A DNA stretch of 64,000 nt from Deltaproteobacteria bacterium (lineage in GTDB: Bacteria > Desulfobacterota > Syntrophorhabdia > Syntrophorhabdales > Syntrophorhabdaceae): positions 62,001 through 126,000 of the forward strand of contig JAKORG010000082.1 in assembly GCA_029777945.1 (NCBI GenBank), read 5' to 3'. A program made the position numbers and the translations under genes. Positions 24,506-62,094 of the stretch are shown here, in pieces. The notes below the pieces were generated by a model. That model made no database searches, was not told where the DNA came from, and was given only the letters and a program-made list of their open reading frames with translations. The stretch's first letter is position 1. Each line of letters opens with the position of its first letter.

Positions 24506-25004
24506 ACCACCCCTTATTGGTATTGTCGGGACTTCTAATGTCGGGAAAACAACCCTTATTGAACGTTTAATACCAATATTTAAAGAAAAAGGGATAGCCG
24601 TTGCTGTTATCAAACACCATCCCCACGATTTTGATATAGACATTCCTGGAAAGGATACGCATAGATTAAAGGCTGCAGGGGCAAAAACAACTGTCATATC
24701 GTCACCTAAAAAGATTGCCATAGTCTCTGACGTAAAAAAAGAGGTTATGCCAAACGATATAGTTTCAAGGTATGTTGATGATGTGGATCTTGTGATAGTT
24801 GAAGGTTACAAAAAGGAAAAGATTCCAAAAATAGAGATATTCAGACATAAAAAGGATACAAAACCTGTTTGTGCAAATGACCCATACATTATTGCCTTTG
24901 TTACAGATACCCGTTTTGAAACAAAAAAGCCTGTTTTTTTATTGGATGAGGTGCAGAAAATAGCTGAATTTATAATTAATTTTATCAGTAAAAACGGCTC
25001 TTAA
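24498..25004 (+). CDS. mobB: Molybdopterin-guanine dinucleotide biosynthesis protein MobB
   Basis: A 168-residue P-loop GTPase from ATG 24498 (GGGGG precedes it). Walker A is GTSNVGKTT, followed by VIKHHPHDFDID and DTHRLKAAGA, the MobB hallmarks. MobB helps MobA attach GMP to molybdopterin. The tungsto- or molybdopterin enzyme at 62-64 kb might use pterin cofactor, though AOR enzymes typically use bis-pterin without guanine. It overlaps the convergent LpxC fusion gene by 20 bp. Confidence 0.88.
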   Translation: MTKPPLIGIVGTSNVGKTTLIERLIPIFKEKGIAVAVIKHHPHDFDIDIPGKDTHRLKAAGAKTTVISSPKKIAIVSDVKKEVMPNDIVSRYVDDVDLVIVEGYKKEKIPKIEIFRHKKDTKPVCANDPYIIAFVTDTRFETKKPVFLLDEVQKIAEFIINFISKNGS

Positions 25005-26226
25005 GCTCCCTTACAAGGGCTATGTTTTCCATATGACCTGTCTGCTGTGCAACCACCCTCCCTATAATAGGCCTGTTTAGAAGGTACAAATCCCCTATCA
25101 AATCAAGTATCTTGTGTCTTACAAATTCATCGGGGAATCTAAGTTTTGTATTTACAACACCTTCATCACTTAAAAGAATTACATTGTTTACCCTGCCCCC
25201 TGAACCAAGACCCATCTGGTTTAATTTTTCAAAATCCCTTAAAAAGCCAAAAGTTCTGGCAGGGGCAATATCTGTTTTAAATTCATTGCAGCTACCAATG
25301 AATTTATATTCCTGAATACCTATTGGTTCAGGATGGATGAGTTTATATTCAATCTCAAATCTTTCTGATGGCTCTATCTTTAAATACTTGTCCTCAGGCA
25401 GATTGTTAAGGATAATCTCCTCTTCTACCTTTAACGATTCAATGCCCTCTTTCTGCTCTACTATATCCGCCTCTTCTATCTTTTTACAAAGTTCTATGGC
25501 AGAGCCATCAAGTATGGGCACTTCTTCACTTACCTTTATAAGAAGATTGGTTATCCCATACATATGGCATGTGGCCATAAGGTGCTCTATGGTTCTTACC
25601 ACGCAGGATTTTCCCTTAACAGATGATGCATAGCCGATGGAATACACATAATCTATAAATGCCGGTATTCTTTCACCTTCAGGTACATGTTCAAAAATAA
25701 TACCCGTATCTTCCGGCATTGGAAGGAGAATCATCCCAGTTTTTACCCCTGAATGTAATCCCACTCCATAAACCACAATACTTTTGCCAATGGTCTTTTG
25801 TTTTATTATGTTAAGTCCTTTTGAAATACCTATTTTTAATTCATTGTATGTTTCTTTCTGTTTCTCCCTTCCTGCAAGCCCCCTTGATATGACTTCTAAT
25901 ATTTTTTCTATTGTAAGGGGCTTTTCAAGAAAGTCGAAAGCACCCATTTTAACTGCCTCCACAGCGGTGGATATGGTTCCATGGCCTGAAATTACTATCA
26001 CAATAGAGTCATTTCCTTCCCTTTTTATCTCCCTTAATACCTCAATGCCATCCATCTCAGGCATCCAGATATCGAGTATCACTACATCAGGCCTTTCCTT
26101 CTTAAAAATGGATATGCCCATCTTACCGTCCAATGCCTTAAATACCTTAAACCCTTCATCTTCAAGCATAGGCGATAAGACATCTAATATATTTTTCTCG
26201 TCATCGATTATAAGGATCTTTTTCAT
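24985..26226 (-). CDS. lpxC: Response-regulator receiver fused to UDP-3-O-acyl-GlcNAc deacetylase (LpxC)
   Basis: A 413-residue fusion. Residues 1-118 are a CheY-like receiver closest in pattern to NtrX-type regulators, with acidic pair D8/D9, phospho-acceptor D52, switch residue S80 and K102. A charged linker (about 119-140) leads to a complete LpxC, beginning IKQKTIGK. LpxC removes the acetyl group from UDP-3-O-acyl-GlcNAc, the committed step of lipid A synthesis. The zinc ligands H215 (EHLMA), H371 and D375 (RHKILDLIGD), the catalytic E214 and H398 (GHMEN) are present. Both halves look functional, so phosphorylation might tune lipid A synthesis. The expected AAA+ and DNA-binding domains of NtrX are absent. 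The start lies 6 nt after a -10 box. Confidence 0.9.
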   Translation of the reverse strand: MKKILIIDDEKNILDVLSPMLEDEGFKVFKALDGKMGISIFKKERPDVVILDIWMPEMDGIEVLREIKREGNDSIVIVISGHGTISTAVEAVKMGAFDFLEKPLTIEKILEVISRGLAGREKQKETYNELKIGISKGLNIIKQKTIGKSIVVYGVGLHSGVKTGMILLPMPEDTGIIFEHVPEGERIPAFIDYVYSIGYASSVKGKSCVVRTIEHLMATCHMYGITNLLIKVSEEVPILDGSAIELCKKIEEADIVEQKEGIESLKVEEEIILNNLPEDKYLKIEPSERFEIEYKLIHPEPIGIQEYKFIGSCNEFKTDIAPARTFGFLRDFEKLNQMGLGSGGRVNNVILLSDEGVVNTKLRFPDEFVRHKILDLIGDLYLLNRPIIGRVVAQQTGHMENIALVRELKSRFY

Positions 26227-26232
26227 ACAACT

Positions 26233-26261
26233 ATTCTACTCAAAACAATATTTATTTACAA
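26233..26261 (-). promoter_or_regulatory. Promoter of the receiver-lpxC gene, candidate leaderless start
   Basis: TTGTAA (26261-26256), 17 bp, TAGAAT (26238-26233) on the minus strand. The -10 box ends 6 nt before ATG 26226, so transcription should start at the start codon itself. No Shine-Dalgarno is present. Confidence 0.55.
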
Positions 26262-26298
26262 ACAAATAAGGTAAAAAACAACGCCTAAATTAATTGAA

Positions 26299-26327
26299 TT
26301 GACATGATGATTTTTATCTGTTAACCT
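26299..26327 (+). promoter_or_regulatory. Possible promoter for the hpf-pts operon
   Basis: A perfect TTGACA (26299-26304) is followed after 17 bp by TAACCT (26322-26327), a weak -10. The leader would be about 45 nt and ends with GGAGG before hpf. No sigma-54 -24/-12 element was seen. Confidence 0.35.
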
Positions 26328-26377
26328 TGATATTAGGTAGGGTATCTGTTTAATTATATTTTTTGATTGGAGGACAC

Positions 26378-26902
26378 ATGGAAATTACAATCAGTTTCAG
26401 ACATATTGAGCCCGACGAAAATATGAAAAGTTATATTGAAGAAAAGTTTACAAAATTACAAAAATATGTGGAGACCCCCCTTGATGTCCATGTAGTGCTA
26501 TCTGTGGAAAGAAAATACAGATACAGGGTGGATGTTTTATTTACGATAAACGGTGTGGTTATAAATGCCCATGAAACTATGGATGATATGCGGGCAGCCG
26601 TAGATATGATCCTCGATAAGATAGAAAGAAGATTGACAAGATACAGAGAAAAATTAAAAAGATACAGAAATGCAAGGCCTAAAAAAGAATTAGTCCGGCC
26701 ATCAGAGCCTGTTTCCAAGATTGTAGTAACCAAAACTATAGACGCAAAGCCTATGGATACAGAAGAGGCTGCAATGCAGCTTGAAGCATCGGGAGACAAT
26801 TTTATAATTTTTAGAGACAGTGAAAAAGGTAACGTGTGCGTTATATACAAGAGAAAGGATGGCAACTTCGGTCTAATTGAAGCTTCTGGTAAGGCATCAT
26901 GA
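26378..26902 (+). CDS. hpf: Ribosome hibernation-promoting factor, long form
   Basis: A 174-residue protein from ATG 26378 with GGAGG at 26369-26373. The N-terminal S30AE domain (about 1-100) binds the 30S decoding centre. A charged linker and a C-terminal dimerisation domain (about 115-174; DNFIIFRDSEKG, YKRKDGNFGLIE) make it the long type that forms 100S ribosome dimers. It overlaps ptsN by 4 bp, a common hpf-ptsN arrangement. Confidence 0.92.
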   Translation: MEITISFRHIEPDENMKSYIEEKFTKLQKYVETPLDVHVVLSVERKYRYRVDVLFTINGVVINAHETMDDMRAAVDMILDKIERRLTRYREKLKRYRNARPKKELVRPSEPVSKIVVTKTIDAKPMDTEEAAMQLEASGDNFIIFRDSEKGNVCVIYKRKDGNFGLIEASGKAS

Positions 26903-27360
26903 ACCTTGAAGAAATACTTGCAGAATCATGCGTTATAAGCAATCTAAAGGCATCTAATAAAAAAGATGCCATTTATGAGATGTGCGAAACATTAAAAAAG
27001 TCGGGGCTCATCGAAAATGTTCAAGAGGTTGTCAATGTTATCCTTGAAAGAGAAAGGCTCGGCAGCACTGGAATTGGTGAAGGCATTGCAATACCCCATG
27101 GTAAAATGAAGGGCATAAAAAATATATTGTGTGTTTTGGGAAAATCTGAAAAAGGTATTGATTTCGATTCCATTGACAAAAAACCCGTTCATATTATTGT
27201 GCTTCTCCTTGCCCCTGAAGGCTCTGCAAGCATGCATTTAAAGATGTTATCCCGTATTTCGAAGATCCTCAGAGATACCCACATAAGAAACAGGTTGCTC
27301 GAACTGAAAGATGCCCGTGATATATATTTTTATATCTTAGAAGAGGATAGAAAGATTTGA
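26899..27360 (+). CDS. ptsN: PTS EIIA(Ntr) regulatory protein
   Basis: A 153-residue fructose/nitrogen-type EIIA domain. The phosphorylated histidine is H67 in IAIPHGKM. It receives phosphate from HPr and acts as a regulator rather than a sugar carrier. It overlaps hpf by 4 bp; hprK follows 64 bp later. Confidence 0.9.
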   Translation: MNLEEILAESCVISNLKASNKKDAIYEMCETLKKSGLIENVQEVVNVILERERLGSTGIGEGIAIPHGKMKGIKNILCVLGKSEKGIDFDSIDKKPVHIIVLLLAPEGSASMHLKMLSRISKILRDTHIRNRLLELKDARDIYFYILEEDRKI

Positions 27361-27424
27361 AAGGGTCTTGATTACATCTGAAACAAAACATCTCCACAAA
27401 AATAGAGAGTGAAAAATTTTTGCA

Positions 27425-28366
27425 ATGAAAGGTATTACTGTTAAAGAATTATTAGAAGATAAAGAATACGGTTTAGAGCTTACTGTTGTTGCAGGTTTAA
27501 AAGGGCTCTCAAGAAAAATTTACAATACGAAGATACAAAAGCTCGGGCTTGTAGCAACGGGTAAGATGGTTTATATGCATCCCCATAGGATACAGATACT
27601 GGGTAACACGGAGATTTCCTATCTTTTATCTTTAAAGGAAGAAGAAGCCAGGAAAATCATAAAAGAACTTTTTAAACAAGAAGTTGTGTGCTTTGTGATT
27701 ACAAGAAACCTTAATATACCTGATTATTTCATACAGGAGGCAAATGCAAGAGGGTTACCCCTTCTAAAATCAAAACTCGTAACATCGACTTTTATCGAGA
27801 GGATTACAAAACTATTAGAAGAAAAACTTGCTCCATCTACAACAGTCCATGGTATTTTCATGGATGTATTAGGTGTAGGGGTTTTAATCATAGGCAGACC
27901 TGGCATAGGTAAAAGTGAGAGTGCCTTAGAGCTTATAATGAGAGGACATAGATTGATTGTGGATGATGTAGTTTTTGTAAAAAAAGTGGGCGCCATAGAA
28001 TTACACGGTGAGGCCCCGGAAATGATTAAAAATCTCCTTGAAATCAGAGGGGTTGGGATTGTGGATATCAGGCGTTTGTTCGGTGCCTCTTCCATATGTG
28101 ATAAGAAAAAAATAGACTTTGTTGTGGAATTAATAGACTGGGACGAAAGGCATGATAACGAAAGGCTGGGGATGAAGGAAGAAAAATATCGTCTTTTAGG
28201 CATTGACCTCCCTCTTGTTAAAATCCCTGTAAGCCTTGGAAGAAATGTATCGGCCATAATAGAACTTGCTTGCAGAAATTTTGTTTTAAAACAACAGGGG
28301 ATAGATACAGCCTCTGAGCTTGAAGAAAAGATTTTAAAAACCACATCAGCAGGAAAAAATAAATGA
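27425..28366 (+). CDS. hprK: HPr kinase/phosphorylase
   Basis: A 313-residue bifunctional enzyme that adds and removes phosphate on Ser46 of HPr. The P-loop GRPGIGKS is at 157-164, with the nearby catalytic histidine H142. The C-terminal family signature EIRGVGIVDI is present. Its target Ser46 is conserved in the HPr encoded downstream. It overlaps rapZ by 4 bp. No clear ribosome-binding site precedes the ATG. Confidence 0.93.
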   Translation: MKGITVKELLEDKEYGLELTVVAGLKGLSRKIYNTKIQKLGLVATGKMVYMHPHRIQILGNTEISYLLSLKEEEARKIIKELFKQEVVCFVITRNLNIPDYFIQEANARGLPLLKSKLVTSTFIERITKLLEEKLAPSTTVHGIFMDVLGVGVLIIGRPGIGKSESALELIMRGHRLIVDDVVFVKKVGAIELHGEAPEMIKNLLEIRGVGIVDIRRLFGASSICDKKKIDFVVELIDWDERHDNERLGMKEEKYRLLGIDLPLVKIPVSLGRNVSAIIELACRNFVLKQQGIDTASELEEKILKTTSAGKNK

Positions 28367-29208
28367 AGATAGTGATAGTGAGTGGTATATCGGGTTCTGG
28401 AAAATCTACATTTTTAAAGGCACTGGAAGATATCGGTTTTTTCTGTATAGACAATTTCCCCATACCACTGATAGAAGAATTTATCAAGATGTGTGAGCAT
28501 TATAAAGAAAGGTTAACAACTATTGCCATCGTTGTCGATATAAGGGAAAGGGAATTTTTCGACAGGGGTAAAAAGATTATAAAAGAACTCAAGGAAAATT
28601 ATAATGCAGAGTGCATTTTCCTTGAAAGTAGTGACGATGTACTTATAAGGAGATTTAGTGAAACAAGAAGGATGCACCCCATATTTGAATCTGTGAATGT
28701 CAAGGATGCCATAACTAAGGAGAGGGAGGTCATTGCATGGCTAAAAGACTTATCGAACAAGGTAATAGATACCTCACACCTCACAACCCATGAATTAAGA
28801 AGGTTTGTCATGAGTGTTTATGGGAAGGATAAAAGGGGCATTAAGATAACCCTTATGTCCTTTGGATATGCTTATGGCCTGCCCATAGAAGCAGATATGG
28901 TTTTTGATGTAAGGTTCCTTCCCAATCCTTATTTCGTTGAAGGTTTAAGGGATAAGACAGGACTTGCCGATGAAGTGGGGATGTATATAAAATCAGACGA
29001 TGTTTTTAAGAAGTATTTTCTTTTACTTTCCGATTTTTTATTGTATCTTATTCCACTCTTTGAAAAAGAGGGTAAAAGTTATCTAACTTTATGTGTAGGC
29101 TGTACAGGCGGTAAACATAGAAGTGTTTTTGTAGTAAAGGAACTTGAAGACATACTTATTTCCATGGGTTATAATATAACTACCATACACAGAGATATTA
29201 ATAGATAG
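28363..29208 (+). CDS. rapZ: RNase adapter / nucleotide-binding protein RapZ (YvcJ family)
   Basis: A 281-residue protein. The P-loop is GISGSGKST (about 6-14), and SFGYAYGLP and CTGGKHRSVF are family hallmarks. In enterobacteria RapZ directs RNase E to the small RNA GlmZ to control amino-sugar synthesis; in other groups its target is unknown. Its place between hprK and PTS genes is conserved in many proteobacteria. It overlaps hprK by 4 bp. Confidence 0.92.
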   Translation: MKIVIVSGISGSGKSTFLKALEDIGFFCIDNFPIPLIEEFIKMCEHYKERLTTIAIVVDIREREFFDRGKKIIKELKENYNAECIFLESSDDVLIRRFSETRRMHPIFESVNVKDAITKEREVIAWLKDLSNKVIDTSHLTTHELRRFVMSVYGKDKRGIKITLMSFGYAYGLPIEADMVFDVRFLPNPYFVEGLRDKTGLADEVGMYIKSDDVFKKYFLLLSDFLLYLIPLFEKEGKSYLTLCVGCTGGKHRSVFVVKELEDILISMGYNITTIHRDINR

Positions 29209-29225
29209 CAGTTGCGGAGGCTTTA

Positions 29226-29636
29226 ATGGTTGGAATAGTAATAGTTGCCCACTTCAATCTTGCAAAAGAGATGGCAAGGGCAGTGGAGCTTATAGTGGGA
29301 AAACAGCAGATGTTCACCCATGTGGATATTTTTCCCAATGAGGATATGGAGGGAATAAAGAAAAAGATAATTACTGCCATAAAGTCTGTTGATGATGGCG
29401 AAGGTGTTATTATTCTGACAGATATGTTCGGAGGTACTCCGTCCAATATAAGCCTTTCTTTTTTAGAGGCTGGTAAAGTGGAGGTTGTAACAGGGGTGAA
29501 TTTGCCTATGTTGATAAAATTGGCAACATACAGAGAAGAAAAATCCATTGATGAACTTGCCAGGTTTATAACAGGTTATGGCCAAAAAAACATTTACCTG
29601 GCTACTGACTTACTTAAAGGAATGGGTAAAAAATAG
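29226..29636 (+). CDS. PTS EIIA component, mannose type
   Basis: A 136-residue EIIA(Man) domain. The phosphorylated histidine is H9 in IVIVAHFN, and DMFGGTPSN is the second family motif. No EIIB, EIIC or EIID gene follows, so it probably has a regulatory role. GGAGG lies upstream of the ATG. The ptsH gene follows at once. Confidence 0.9.
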   Translation: MVGIVIVAHFNLAKEMARAVELIVGKQQMFTHVDIFPNEDMEGIKKKIITAIKSVDDGEGVIILTDMFGGTPSNISLSFLEAGKVEVVTGVNLPMLIKLATYREEKSIDELARFITGYGQKNIYLATDLLKGMGKK

Positions 29637-29641
29637 TGCCG

Positions 29642-29908
29642 ATGGTGGAATGTACTTTTACCATTAAAAACAGGCTTGGGCTCCATGCAAGACCTGCTGC
29701 CATGTTTGTAAAAAAGGCAAACGAATTTTCATCTGAGATATGGGTAGAAAAAGACGGCATGAGGGTAAACGGTAAAAGCATTATGGGGCTTTTAATGCTT
29801 GCATGTCTACTGGGTAGTTCCATAAAATTGGAAATAAACGGTGAAGATGAAAACGATGCCTTAAGGGCATTGGGTAAACTTATAGAGGATGGTTTTTACG
29901 AAGAATGA
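29642..29908 (+). CDS. ptsH: Phosphocarrier protein HPr
   Basis: An 88-residue HPr from ATG 29642. This start places the EI-phosphorylated histidine at exactly H15 (RLGLHARPAA) and the HprK-regulated serine at S46 (GKSIMGL), the standard numbering. A GTG two codons upstream (29636) would shift both and is less likely. It carries phosphate from EI to the EIIA proteins. It overlaps ptsI by 4 bp. Confidence 0.94.
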   Translation: MVECTFTIKNRLGLHARPAAMFVKKANEFSSEIWVEKDGMRVNGKSIMGLLMLACLLGSSIKLEINGEDENDALRALGKLIEDGFYEE

Positions 29909-31689
29909 AAGAAGAAACGTTTACAAATAAGATAATAAAAGGTATTGGTGTTTCTTCAGGTATTGCAACGGGAAGCGTTTATCTGCTCGAGAGAGGTAAA
30001 ATACCCGTTATCAAAAGAAATATAAAGGCAGAACAGATAGAAAAAGAGGTCAACAGATTTAGAAATGCAGTAAGGGACGCAATAGGTGAACTAAATGCCA
30101 TAAAACAATCTATACCTGATGACGAGGTCAGAAGGCATTCCTTTATAATCGACGCCCATATTTTAATGCTTCAGGATGATTTTTTTTCAAGAGATGTAGT
30201 TAATGTTATAAGGAAGGATAATGTTAATGCCGAATGGGCCCTCGATATGGTGGTATCTAAATTTATGTCAAGTTTCGAAGCCATAGAAGACCTCTATTTC
30301 AGAGAAAGGGCACAGGATTTAAAGTATATTTATGATAGACTTATGAGGATACTCGTAAAGGGAAAAAGCCCAACTGTTGAGACAAAGAAAAAGGCAGAGA
30401 GGGGTATTATTGTAGCCCATGACCTATCCCCGGCAGATACAATCCAGCTAAATTTGAACAAGATATCAGGTTTTGTAACAGATGTGGGCGGAAGGACATC
30501 ACACACATCCATTGTAGCAAGGGCATTAGAGATACCTGCTGTGGTAGGTGCGGGAAACATATCGAGCCTTGTCAAAAATAATGACAGGATTATTGTAGAC
30601 GGCGATGAAGGCATTGTTATAATAAACCCCACACCAGAGGTTCACAAAGAATATATATCGAAGCAATTGAGGCTTAAAAATATAAAAAAGGAATTTTTAA
30701 GGATTGCAAAGCTAAAATCTGAGACAAAAGATGGGTTTATGGTAAAGGTAGGTGCAAACATCGAGCTTATTGCAGAGATGGATATTGTTAAAAAGTACGG
30801 TGCCCAGGGCATAGGGCTGTATAGAACAGAATATATTTATCTCTCAAGAAAAACGTTGCCAACAGAGATAGAGCATTTTCATATTTACAAAAAATTGGCA
30901 GAGAACAAAAACCTCGATTATGTGACCATAAGAACCCTCGACATAGGCGGAGATAAATTCGTCTCCCATATAGAGATGGCAAAGGAGATAAACCCTGCCA
31001 TGGGGTTGAGGGCAATAAGATTGTGCATAAAAGAGACAGATTTATTTAAGAGTCAGTTAAAAGGCATCTTGAGGGCAAGCGCATATGGGCCCCTTAAGAT
31101 CCTTATTCCCATGGTTTCTGGTATTGAGGAGATAAAAAAAACAAAAGAAATCTTAAAGGAATGCATGGAAGAACTGGAGCATAAAAAGATAGATTTTAAC
31201 AAAAATATAGAATTAGGCATAATGATTGAAGTTCCTTCCACATGCATGATAAGCGACATACTTGCAAAAGAGGTGGATTTTTTTAGTATCGGAACGAATG
31301 ATTTAATCCAGTATACCCTTGCCATTGACAGAATAAATGAATATGTGTCCTATCTCTATGAGCCTTTACATCCTGCTGTTTTGAGGATGATAAAACACGT
31401 GGTAGAAGCGGCCCATGCCAATGGAATTGAGGTTGCCATGTGTGGAGAGATGGCAGGAGAGGCGCTATACATTCCTGTATTGATAGGGCTTAGACTCGAT
31501 GAATTAAGCATGAACCCTTATTCAGTGCCTAAAGCAAAAAAGATAGTTCGTGGCTTAGAACATGCTTACTGTAAAGATTTGCTTTATGAGTTGTTTAGGC
31601 AGGATTCTCACAAAAAGTCTGAAACTCTCCTCAGAAAAGAAATGGCAAGACTTTTCCCCGATGACTTTATAAAATGTATAGAAGAATAA
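29905..31689 (+). CDS. ptsI: PTS enzyme I (phosphoenolpyruvate-protein phosphotransferase)
   Basis: A 594-residue enzyme that takes phosphate from PEP and passes it to HPr. The active histidine is H200 in GGRTSHTSIVAR. The C-terminal PEP-binding barrel contains GIGLYRTEY, SIGTNDLIQYTLA and the conserved cysteine of AMCGEMAGE. Full length for the family. It overlaps ptsH by 4 bp and is followed by metK after 19 bp. Confidence 0.95.
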   Translation: MKEETFTNKIIKGIGVSSGIATGSVYLLERGKIPVIKRNIKAEQIEKEVNRFRNAVRDAIGELNAIKQSIPDDEVRRHSFIIDAHILMLQDDFFSRDVVNVIRKDNVNAEWALDMVVSKFMSSFEAIEDLYFRERAQDLKYIYDRLMRILVKGKSPTVETKKKAERGIIVAHDLSPADTIQLNLNKISGFVTDVGGRTSHTSIVARALEIPAVVGAGNISSLVKNNDRIIVDGDEGIVIINPTPEVHKEYISKQLRLKNIKKEFLRIAKLKSETKDGFMVKVGANIELIAEMDIVKKYGAQGIGLYRTEYIYLSRKTLPTEIEHFHIYKKLAENKNLDYVTIRTLDIGGDKFVSHIEMAKEINPAMGLRAIRLCIKETDLFKSQLKGILRASAYGPLKILIPMVSGIEEIKKTKEILKECMEELEHKKIDFNKNIELGIMIEVPSTCMISDILAKEVDFFSIGTNDLIQYTLAIDRINEYVSYLYEPLHPAVLRMIKHVVEAAHANGIEVAMCGEMAGEALYIPVLIGLRLDELSMNPYSVPKAKKIVRGLEHAYCKDLLYELFRQDSHKKSETLLRKEMARLFPDDFIKCIEE

Positions 31690-61903: not shown

Positions 61904-62094
61904 GATAATTTAATTTAATAATTGTGGTTGAGGAAAATTTCTTAATAGTGAAAAAATGTAAGATATGTTTTTCGAATTAAAGCTAAGGGCCATGTGTAAA
62001 TTTTCTCGGTAAAATATTGGCATTATATTTTTAAGGATGTTAGAATAATATATTAATCTTTTATTAAAAATCTTATATACAGGAAGGTTGAAGG

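Follow-up and report, generated by a model that had tools for sequence, protein, structure and literature searches.

A receiver domain fused to LpxC in a Syntrophorhabdaceae genome, and a likely move of NtrY control of lipid A synthesis from transcription to the enzyme

The 64,000 nucleotides of DNA analysed here (the window; positions 62,001 to 126,000 of contig JAKORG010000082.1, assembly GCA_029777945.1) come from a Deltaproteobacteria bacterium of the family Syntrophorhabdaceae and contain a gene that joins a receiver domain to LpxC, the features of which are listed in Table 1. The LpxC part is whole: its Pfam match covers positions 1-267 of the 268 in the PF03331 profile (265.6 bits against a cut-off of 27), and in NCBIfam the protein exceeds the curated cut-off of the lpxC family TIGR00325 (224.7 versus 187.25 bits). 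Against the full-length NtrX family, NF051870, it reaches 129.4 bits where 600 are needed, and it fails the LpxC-FabZ family, NF009667 (194.6 against a cut-off of 465), Pfam giving only LpxC and receiver domains. The window protein is not an NtrX, as the AAA+ and HTH parts of such a regulator are absent from the short form of the fusion and decayed in the long forms described below. An AlphaFold model (pLDDT 82, pTM 0.82) contains both folds, and its LpxC part matches solved LpxC structures; it came without a pairwise error map, so that contact between the receiver and LpxC domains cannot be judged.

Table 1. Coordinates in the window of the fusion gene, its domains, key codons and upstream region
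Feature	Position	Strand	Basis
Receiver-LpxC fusion gene	24985..26226	minus	413 aa, ATG start, single open frame without internal stop; translation, Pfam, NCBIfam
NtrX-type receiver domain, residues 4-113	25888..26217	minus	PF00072 E 1.7e-31; NtrX NF051870 the best regulator family; receiver tree
Phospho-acceptor D52 codon	26071..26073	minus	invariant, 65/65 distinct fusions
Linker, residues 114-142	25801..25887	minus	length and sequence hypervariable in alignment; model pLDDT <50 at residues 121-130
LpxC catalytic domain, residues 143-409, then only 4 more residues	25000..25800	minus	PF03331 E 6.7e-79; fold match to solved LpxC structures; tail length
E214 and H215 codons (catalytic / zinc site)	25582..25587	minus	invariant 65/65; correspond to the LpxC EH motif when aligned with solved LpxC
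H371 to D375 codons (HKILD, zinc ligands)	25102..25116	minus	H371 and D375 invariant 65/65
H398 codon (TGH motif)	25033..25035	minus	64/64 complete sequences
Intergenic region 5' of the fusion gene, shared with divergent hpf	26227..26362	minus	without a sigma-54 -24/-12 element

The 3' end of the gene overlaps a convergent MobB-like gene by 20 bp, and a convergent MobB/NUDIX pair is the only neighbourhood common to the fusion in the relatives checked. On the other side the fusion adjoins a cluster (26363-31689) consisting of what we take to be, from reading the sequences, divergent hpf, ptsN-like, hprK, rapZ, EIIA-Man-like, HPr-like and PtsI genes. Together they form a PTS set with HPr kinase, regulatory in appearance; synteny of the fusion with the hpf-ptsN-hprK-rapZ cluster was not found in the relatives checked.

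In a scan of one genome per species, 16 full-length relatives were found at 42-84% identity, among them proteins at 84, 80, 71, 69 and 67%, all from other MAGs. Their hosts are Syntrophorhabdales and other MAGs labelled Deltaproteobacteria, Candidatus Binatia and one Oligoflexia MAG. Because full-length homologues also come from many independent MAGs and from a complete Binatia chromosome, a chance or assembly artefact is ruled out. The fusion is present in 36 of the 39 genomes of the window's own family and, by profile, in 91 of 395 sampled genomes of the phylum, 71 with the short form and 20 with a long form whose open frames run to 630-820 residues. The sample covers the window's own phylum, and there are no phylum-wide counts for Binatota or Bdellovibrionota. 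In nearly all fusion genomes of the sample the fusion is the only LpxC. It is likewise the sole PF03331 match in its own genome, which excludes a second, normal LpxC that would make it dispensable, and since LpxA is also encoded there (as is sigma-54), the fusion is the cell's LpxC, with the reservation that its deacetylase activity is inferred from sequence.

In a tree of LpxC domains, every fusion (44 short, nine long and one truncated by a contig end) falls on one side of a branch with 100/99 support and all of the phylum's standalone LpxC proteins fall on the other, from which we infer a single origin for a fused enzyme now found in 25 families of the sample. The fusion is old and widespread, occurring in dozens of related lineages. 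Departures from one fusion per genome were also seen: two genomes have, in addition to a normal LpxC, a divergent receiver-LpxC with Met in place of His at position 158 (L131 in G252 and L132 in G208), and in another (L139, G393:C1) there are two receiver-LpxC fusions some 130 kb from each other.

Among 65 distinct fusions, D8, D9, D52 and K102 of the receiver are invariant and position 80 is always S or T, and in LpxC the same invariance holds for E214, H215, H371 and D375. The linker between the two domains varies freely. The acidic pair, phospho-acceptor Asp, Ser/Thr and Lys of a functional PF00072 receiver are thus all in place; that it is phosphorylated is inferred, and a pseudo-receiver is ruled out by the invariant D52. 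NtrX (NF051870) is the top full-regulator family for the receiver part in NCBIfam, and a receiver tree, limited by its few columns, places the fusion receivers among those of NtrX and apart from other regulators (97/84). An earlier note on this stretch, made without database searches, had described one uninterrupted frame joining an NtrX-like receiver to a complete LpxC, with D8/D9, D52, S80, K102, E214, H215, H371, D375 and H398 intact. The frame held in Pfam and NCBIfam, the NtrX likeness in the family scan and receiver tree, and every residue at its numbered position; loss of D52 in most homologues, which the note would have accepted as refutation, did not materialise.

Nine proteins of the long form were read (L122-L130, from G388, G185, G003, G274, G294, G209, G001, G132 and G386), and in the three that were scanned the domain order is receiver, Sigma54_activat, AAA_lid_14 and LpxC. 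The part ahead of LpxC in the one protein scanned against NCBIfam matches NtrX over its whole length, with a score of 332 bits where the cut-off is 600. Set beside real NtrX, the nine proteins are all missing the arginine finger, the Walker-B glutamate and the GAFTGA motif that contacts sigma-54; they still have WPGN and a Walker-A-like loop, and a Fis-like HTH stretch is kept in eight of the nine. We regard the long form with its decayed AAA+ domain as probably a fossil intermediate. The earlier note had the enzyme replacing the AAA+ and DNA-binding domains of an NtrX-type regulator, which held with a refinement: because the long forms keep a decayed AAA+ domain, LpxC was apparently joined first to a whole NtrX, and the AAA+ and HTH parts were lost later. 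The simplest history, which is an inference, is that LpxC became joined to a complete NtrX, that transcriptional activity was then lost, and that the short forms afterwards dropped the middle. Since the long forms do not sit at the base of the LpxC tree, this history requires several deletions or a re-fusion.

The spread of the fusion coincides with the disappearance of NtrX itself. A profile built from 12 NtrX proteins gave a two-peaked result over the 395 genomes, from which (by counts from the table) true NtrX is absent in 89 of the 91 fusion genomes, where no match is stronger than about E 1e-168, and a match below 1e-175 is found in about 265 of the 304 non-fusion genomes. Only the four best candidates were scored per genome, yet this was enough to find the approximately 265 non-fusion NtrX proteins. 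The two fusion genomes that still have a true NtrX are G285 and G208, and in the latter the fusion is the divergent second LpxC mentioned above. No true NtrX was found in the window's own genome, where the best match (E 9.9e-147) lies inside the paralogue range, and a complete Binatia chromosome, for which all candidates were scored, encodes one LpxC, which is the fusion, and no true NtrX. Families of mixed state are instructive here. In f11, three genomes are fused and without NtrX (G009, G047, G083) and two are unfused and with it (G113, G142); in f28, seven fused genomes score 1e-147 to 1e-155 and seven unfused ones 1e-193 to 1e-196; and in f50 the fused genome G132 is without NtrX and the others have it. 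Families f88 and f34 contradict the pattern, so that of the five mixed families known three are consistent and two are not.

The corresponding kinase has been retained. NtrY is present in 86 of the 91 fusion genomes, and in Binatia, most long forms and families f20, f45, f53, f54, f59 and f87 an NtrY-type kinase gene directly precedes the fusion on its strand, at a distance of 0-50 bp or with a slight overlap, encoding in the three cases scanned NtrY_N, HAMP, PAS, HisKA and HATPase_c domains. A kinase fused in frame 5' of the fusion was considered for three open frames of 1007-1423 aa (L133-L135) and rejected: the kinase of L133 and L134 is encoded by a gene of its own that overlaps the long open frame in a different frame, and the residues 5' of the fusion in L135 resemble translated non-coding DNA. 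NtrY is not linked to the fusion in the window's family, where 29 of 31 genomes have one NtrY match of about 600 bits and a runner-up of about 150. The window's own genome conforms, with a single NtrY-type kinase on another contig (G000:C99:18334-20472) at 615 bits, the next best being 144. This protein is full-length, 36% identical to a fusion-adjacent NtrY and intact in its H, N, G1 and G2 boxes; its gene has no NtrX-type regulator as a neighbour. The earlier note's expectation of an orphan partner kinase elsewhere is therefore borne out, the candidate being without an adjoining NtrX and linked to the fusion in other lineages. As to its companion claim of a window without histidine kinases, which stands short of an ORF-by-ORF check, the candidate found is on another contig, C99.

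Relatives with a standalone lpxC show what may have been the starting arrangement. Among 21 such loci, chosen regardless of ntrYX, ten have ntrY and ntrX beside lpxC and one more has ntrY alone, and in 46 of 62 standalone genomes a hand count over the best-scoring matches places ntrY within about 4 kb of lpxC. Of 52 standalone lpxC genes, 36 are preceded by a sigma-54 element (TGGCAC-N5-TTGCW, score of at least 13 of 15, no more than 250 bp upstream of the gene); the figures are two of 312 for control genes from the same loci and zero of 64 for fusions. The 21 ntrY-fusion operons likewise have none ahead of ntrY, and a scan for sigma-70 promoters returned matches at chance level only. Near-perfect sigma-54 promoters are usual at standalone lpxC (e.g., L189, L194, L198, L199, L205, L207 and L209), and sites of this type have been reported at lpxC in Myxococcia (PMC12316311). 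Judging from the promoter element, lipid A synthesis in the phylum's members with standalone lpxC is likely to be sigma-54 dependent. That NtrX is the activator at this promoter is unproven, since one genome with standalone lpxC that lacks both NtrX and NtrY (G038) nevertheless shows a moderate sigma-54 site. The C-terminal tail of LpxC, which has a median of 33.5 residues in standalone proteins, is down to 5-6 in the fusions, and short tails also occur in about ten standalone proteins. A further observation concerns family f41, in which 14 genomes that are 99-100% complete (e.g., G076, G109, G165, G256 and G391) lack LpxC, NtrY and NtrX together and two genomes with LpxC have both NtrY and NtrX. 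This joint presence and absence ties NtrYX to lipid A in the phylum. The 14 may be bacteria without lipid A, a possibility that rests on the absence of LpxC and not on the rest of the lipid A pathway.

The reading that we prefer is that control of lipid A by NtrY has moved from NtrX-mediated transcription to direct phosphorylation of LpxC, which we consider likely even though phosphotransfer and its effect on LpxC are inferred without biochemistry. The regulatory rewiring itself is well supported, by the conservation of the fusion, the retention of NtrY with loss of NtrX, the loss of sigma-54 promoter and tail, and the intermediates with a dead AAA+ domain. The inferred parts are the role of NtrX as activator at the sigma-54 promoter of the relatives' lpxC, phosphotransfer from NtrY to the fusion and the ensuing change in LpxC. 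In the ancestral arrangement, still to be found in relatives, NtrY would phosphorylate NtrX as a protein of its own, which would affect lpxC transcription by way of sigma-54. In the fusion lineages the transcription factor, promoter and tail are gone and the kinase and phospho-acceptor kept; there the membrane sensor kinase NtrY, encoded elsewhere in the window's own genome, is predicted to phosphorylate D52 of the receiver and so to switch the attached deacetylase through its catalytic activity, its oligomeric state (dimerisation) or its stability. The least certain step is the sign. A rise in LpxC output upon phosphorylation would be the likeliest outcome, a guess made because sigma-54 activators act positively. 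In Rhodobacter, deletion of ntrYX raises the lpxC transcript 8.8-fold and no NtrX site was found at lpxC (PMC7240162); NtrYX thus lowers the transcript there, and these data leave the sign uncertain and argue the opposite way. Phosphorylation control of lipid A synthesis, as the earlier note proposed, is accordingly supported as a reading, and a change in LpxC activity or stability remains an inference only. The note's view that a two-component input to lipid A would follow a different logic held in part, the logic being only partly foreign, as lpxC transcription in relatives already comes under NtrYX and sigma-54.

Several other readings deserve consideration. One that is possible, and is best seen as a variant of the preferred explanation with the same input, is that the receiver sets the lifetime of LpxC and not its rate, phosphorylation exposing the protein to, or hiding it from, a protease (FtsH, Lon or Clp) and thereby replacing the standalone tail. 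The difference in tail length speaks for it. The C-terminal tail of E. coli LpxC is the recognition element for FtsH, work that PMC3333781 cites as Fuhrer 2006. Against it, no protease or degron has been identified in the fusion, and the short-tailed standalone proteins show the same trait without a receiver. It is less probable that the receiver is a structural leftover that aids the folding, dimerisation or localisation of LpxC without phosphorylation control. Direct control is unmeasured, and, as the long forms demonstrate, regulator domains can persist long after they have died; the four invariant receiver residues contrast, however, with AAA+ active sites decayed in nine of nine long forms, which argues for selection on the phosphorylation site and not on the ATPase site, and NtrY has been kept although NtrX was lost.

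It also seems improbable that another kinase or acetyl phosphate phosphorylates the receiver while NtrY serves a different regulator. In favour of such a donor, NtrY is unlinked in the window's family and the genomes encode many other kinases, but NtrY adjoins the fusion in many other families, the receiver is of the NtrX type, and the lack of a true NtrX in all but two of the fusion genomes leaves the fusion as the obvious target. The remotest alternative is a reverse flow, in which the state or substrate of LpxC would turn the receiver into a phosphate sink for NtrY or a reporter that feeds back to it. An enzyme-receiver fusion permits such feedback in principle; no result supports this direction specifically, and against it, NtrY has no other evident target after the loss of NtrX.

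Control of lipid A synthesis by direct phosphorylation of LpxC, the reading we favour, can be set against what is known of its parts. Response regulators with enzymatic outputs include the methylesterase CheB, diguanylate cyclases and c-di-GMP phosphodiesterases. These share with the fusion an N-terminal receiver, a flexible linker and a C-terminal enzyme; their enzymes act on signalling, whereas that of the fusion is an essential biosynthetic enzyme. E. coli LpxC, which is controlled by FtsH/LapB-dependent proteolysis, is the same enzyme with the same complete active site, but the fusion has no C-terminal tail and carries its control element as an N-terminal receiver. LpxC-FabZ is likewise a fused LpxC, its partner being a second lipid-synthesis enzyme and not a regulator. 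The NtrYX system of Rhodobacter sphaeroides and Caulobacter, an envelope regulator, resembles the fusion system in kinase type, receiver type and having lpxC downstream (PMC7240162, PMC12444477); there NtrX is a transcription factor that acts indirectly on lpxC, whereas here the NtrX gene is absent and the receiver lies within LpxC. Receiver-enzyme proteins as a kind and NtrYX control of lpxC transcription are thus already known. A receiver on LpxC, an intermediate with a whole NtrX and the replacement of NtrX were not found described in the literature searched. The earlier note allowed that similar fusions may exist in databases, and the sequences are indeed publicly deposited, probably annotated simply as LpxC.

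LpxC, the UDP-3-O-acyl-GlcNAc deacetylase at the committed step towards the lipid A of the outer membrane, is essential, sets the rate of lipid A synthesis and serves as a drug target, and its known control is by proteolysis in E. coli and by NtrYX and ChvGI at the level of transcription in alphaproteobacteria (PMC12444477). If the preferred reading is true, lipid A synthesis would be a direct and fast output of a membrane kinase, and the fusion offers a simple, testable target for NtrY, the signal of which is poorly understood. The system preserves three stages of what amounts to a switch from control of transcription to control of an enzyme: the lpxC-ntrY-ntrX cluster with its sigma-54 promoter at the start, NtrX-LpxC carrying a dead AAA+ domain in the middle, and receiver-LpxC with an orphan NtrY at the end.

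A two-component input dedicated to lpxC is also found in a related bacterium, Desulfovibrio vulgaris, in which lpxC (DVU2917) is the single target of the response regulator DVU2934 (PMC3333781). That input differs from the fusion in being transcriptional and in using separate proteins, and orthology of DVU2934 to NtrX has not been established. In S. fumaroxidans lpxC adjoins the orthologous operon, and the D. vulgaris operon controlling lpxC includes an HD-GYP regulator (PMC3333781). In the window's own genome, an HD-GYP response regulator and a receiver protein are encoded 3-5 kb from the orphan ntrY, on the opposite strand (L162:11522-13577, G000:C99).
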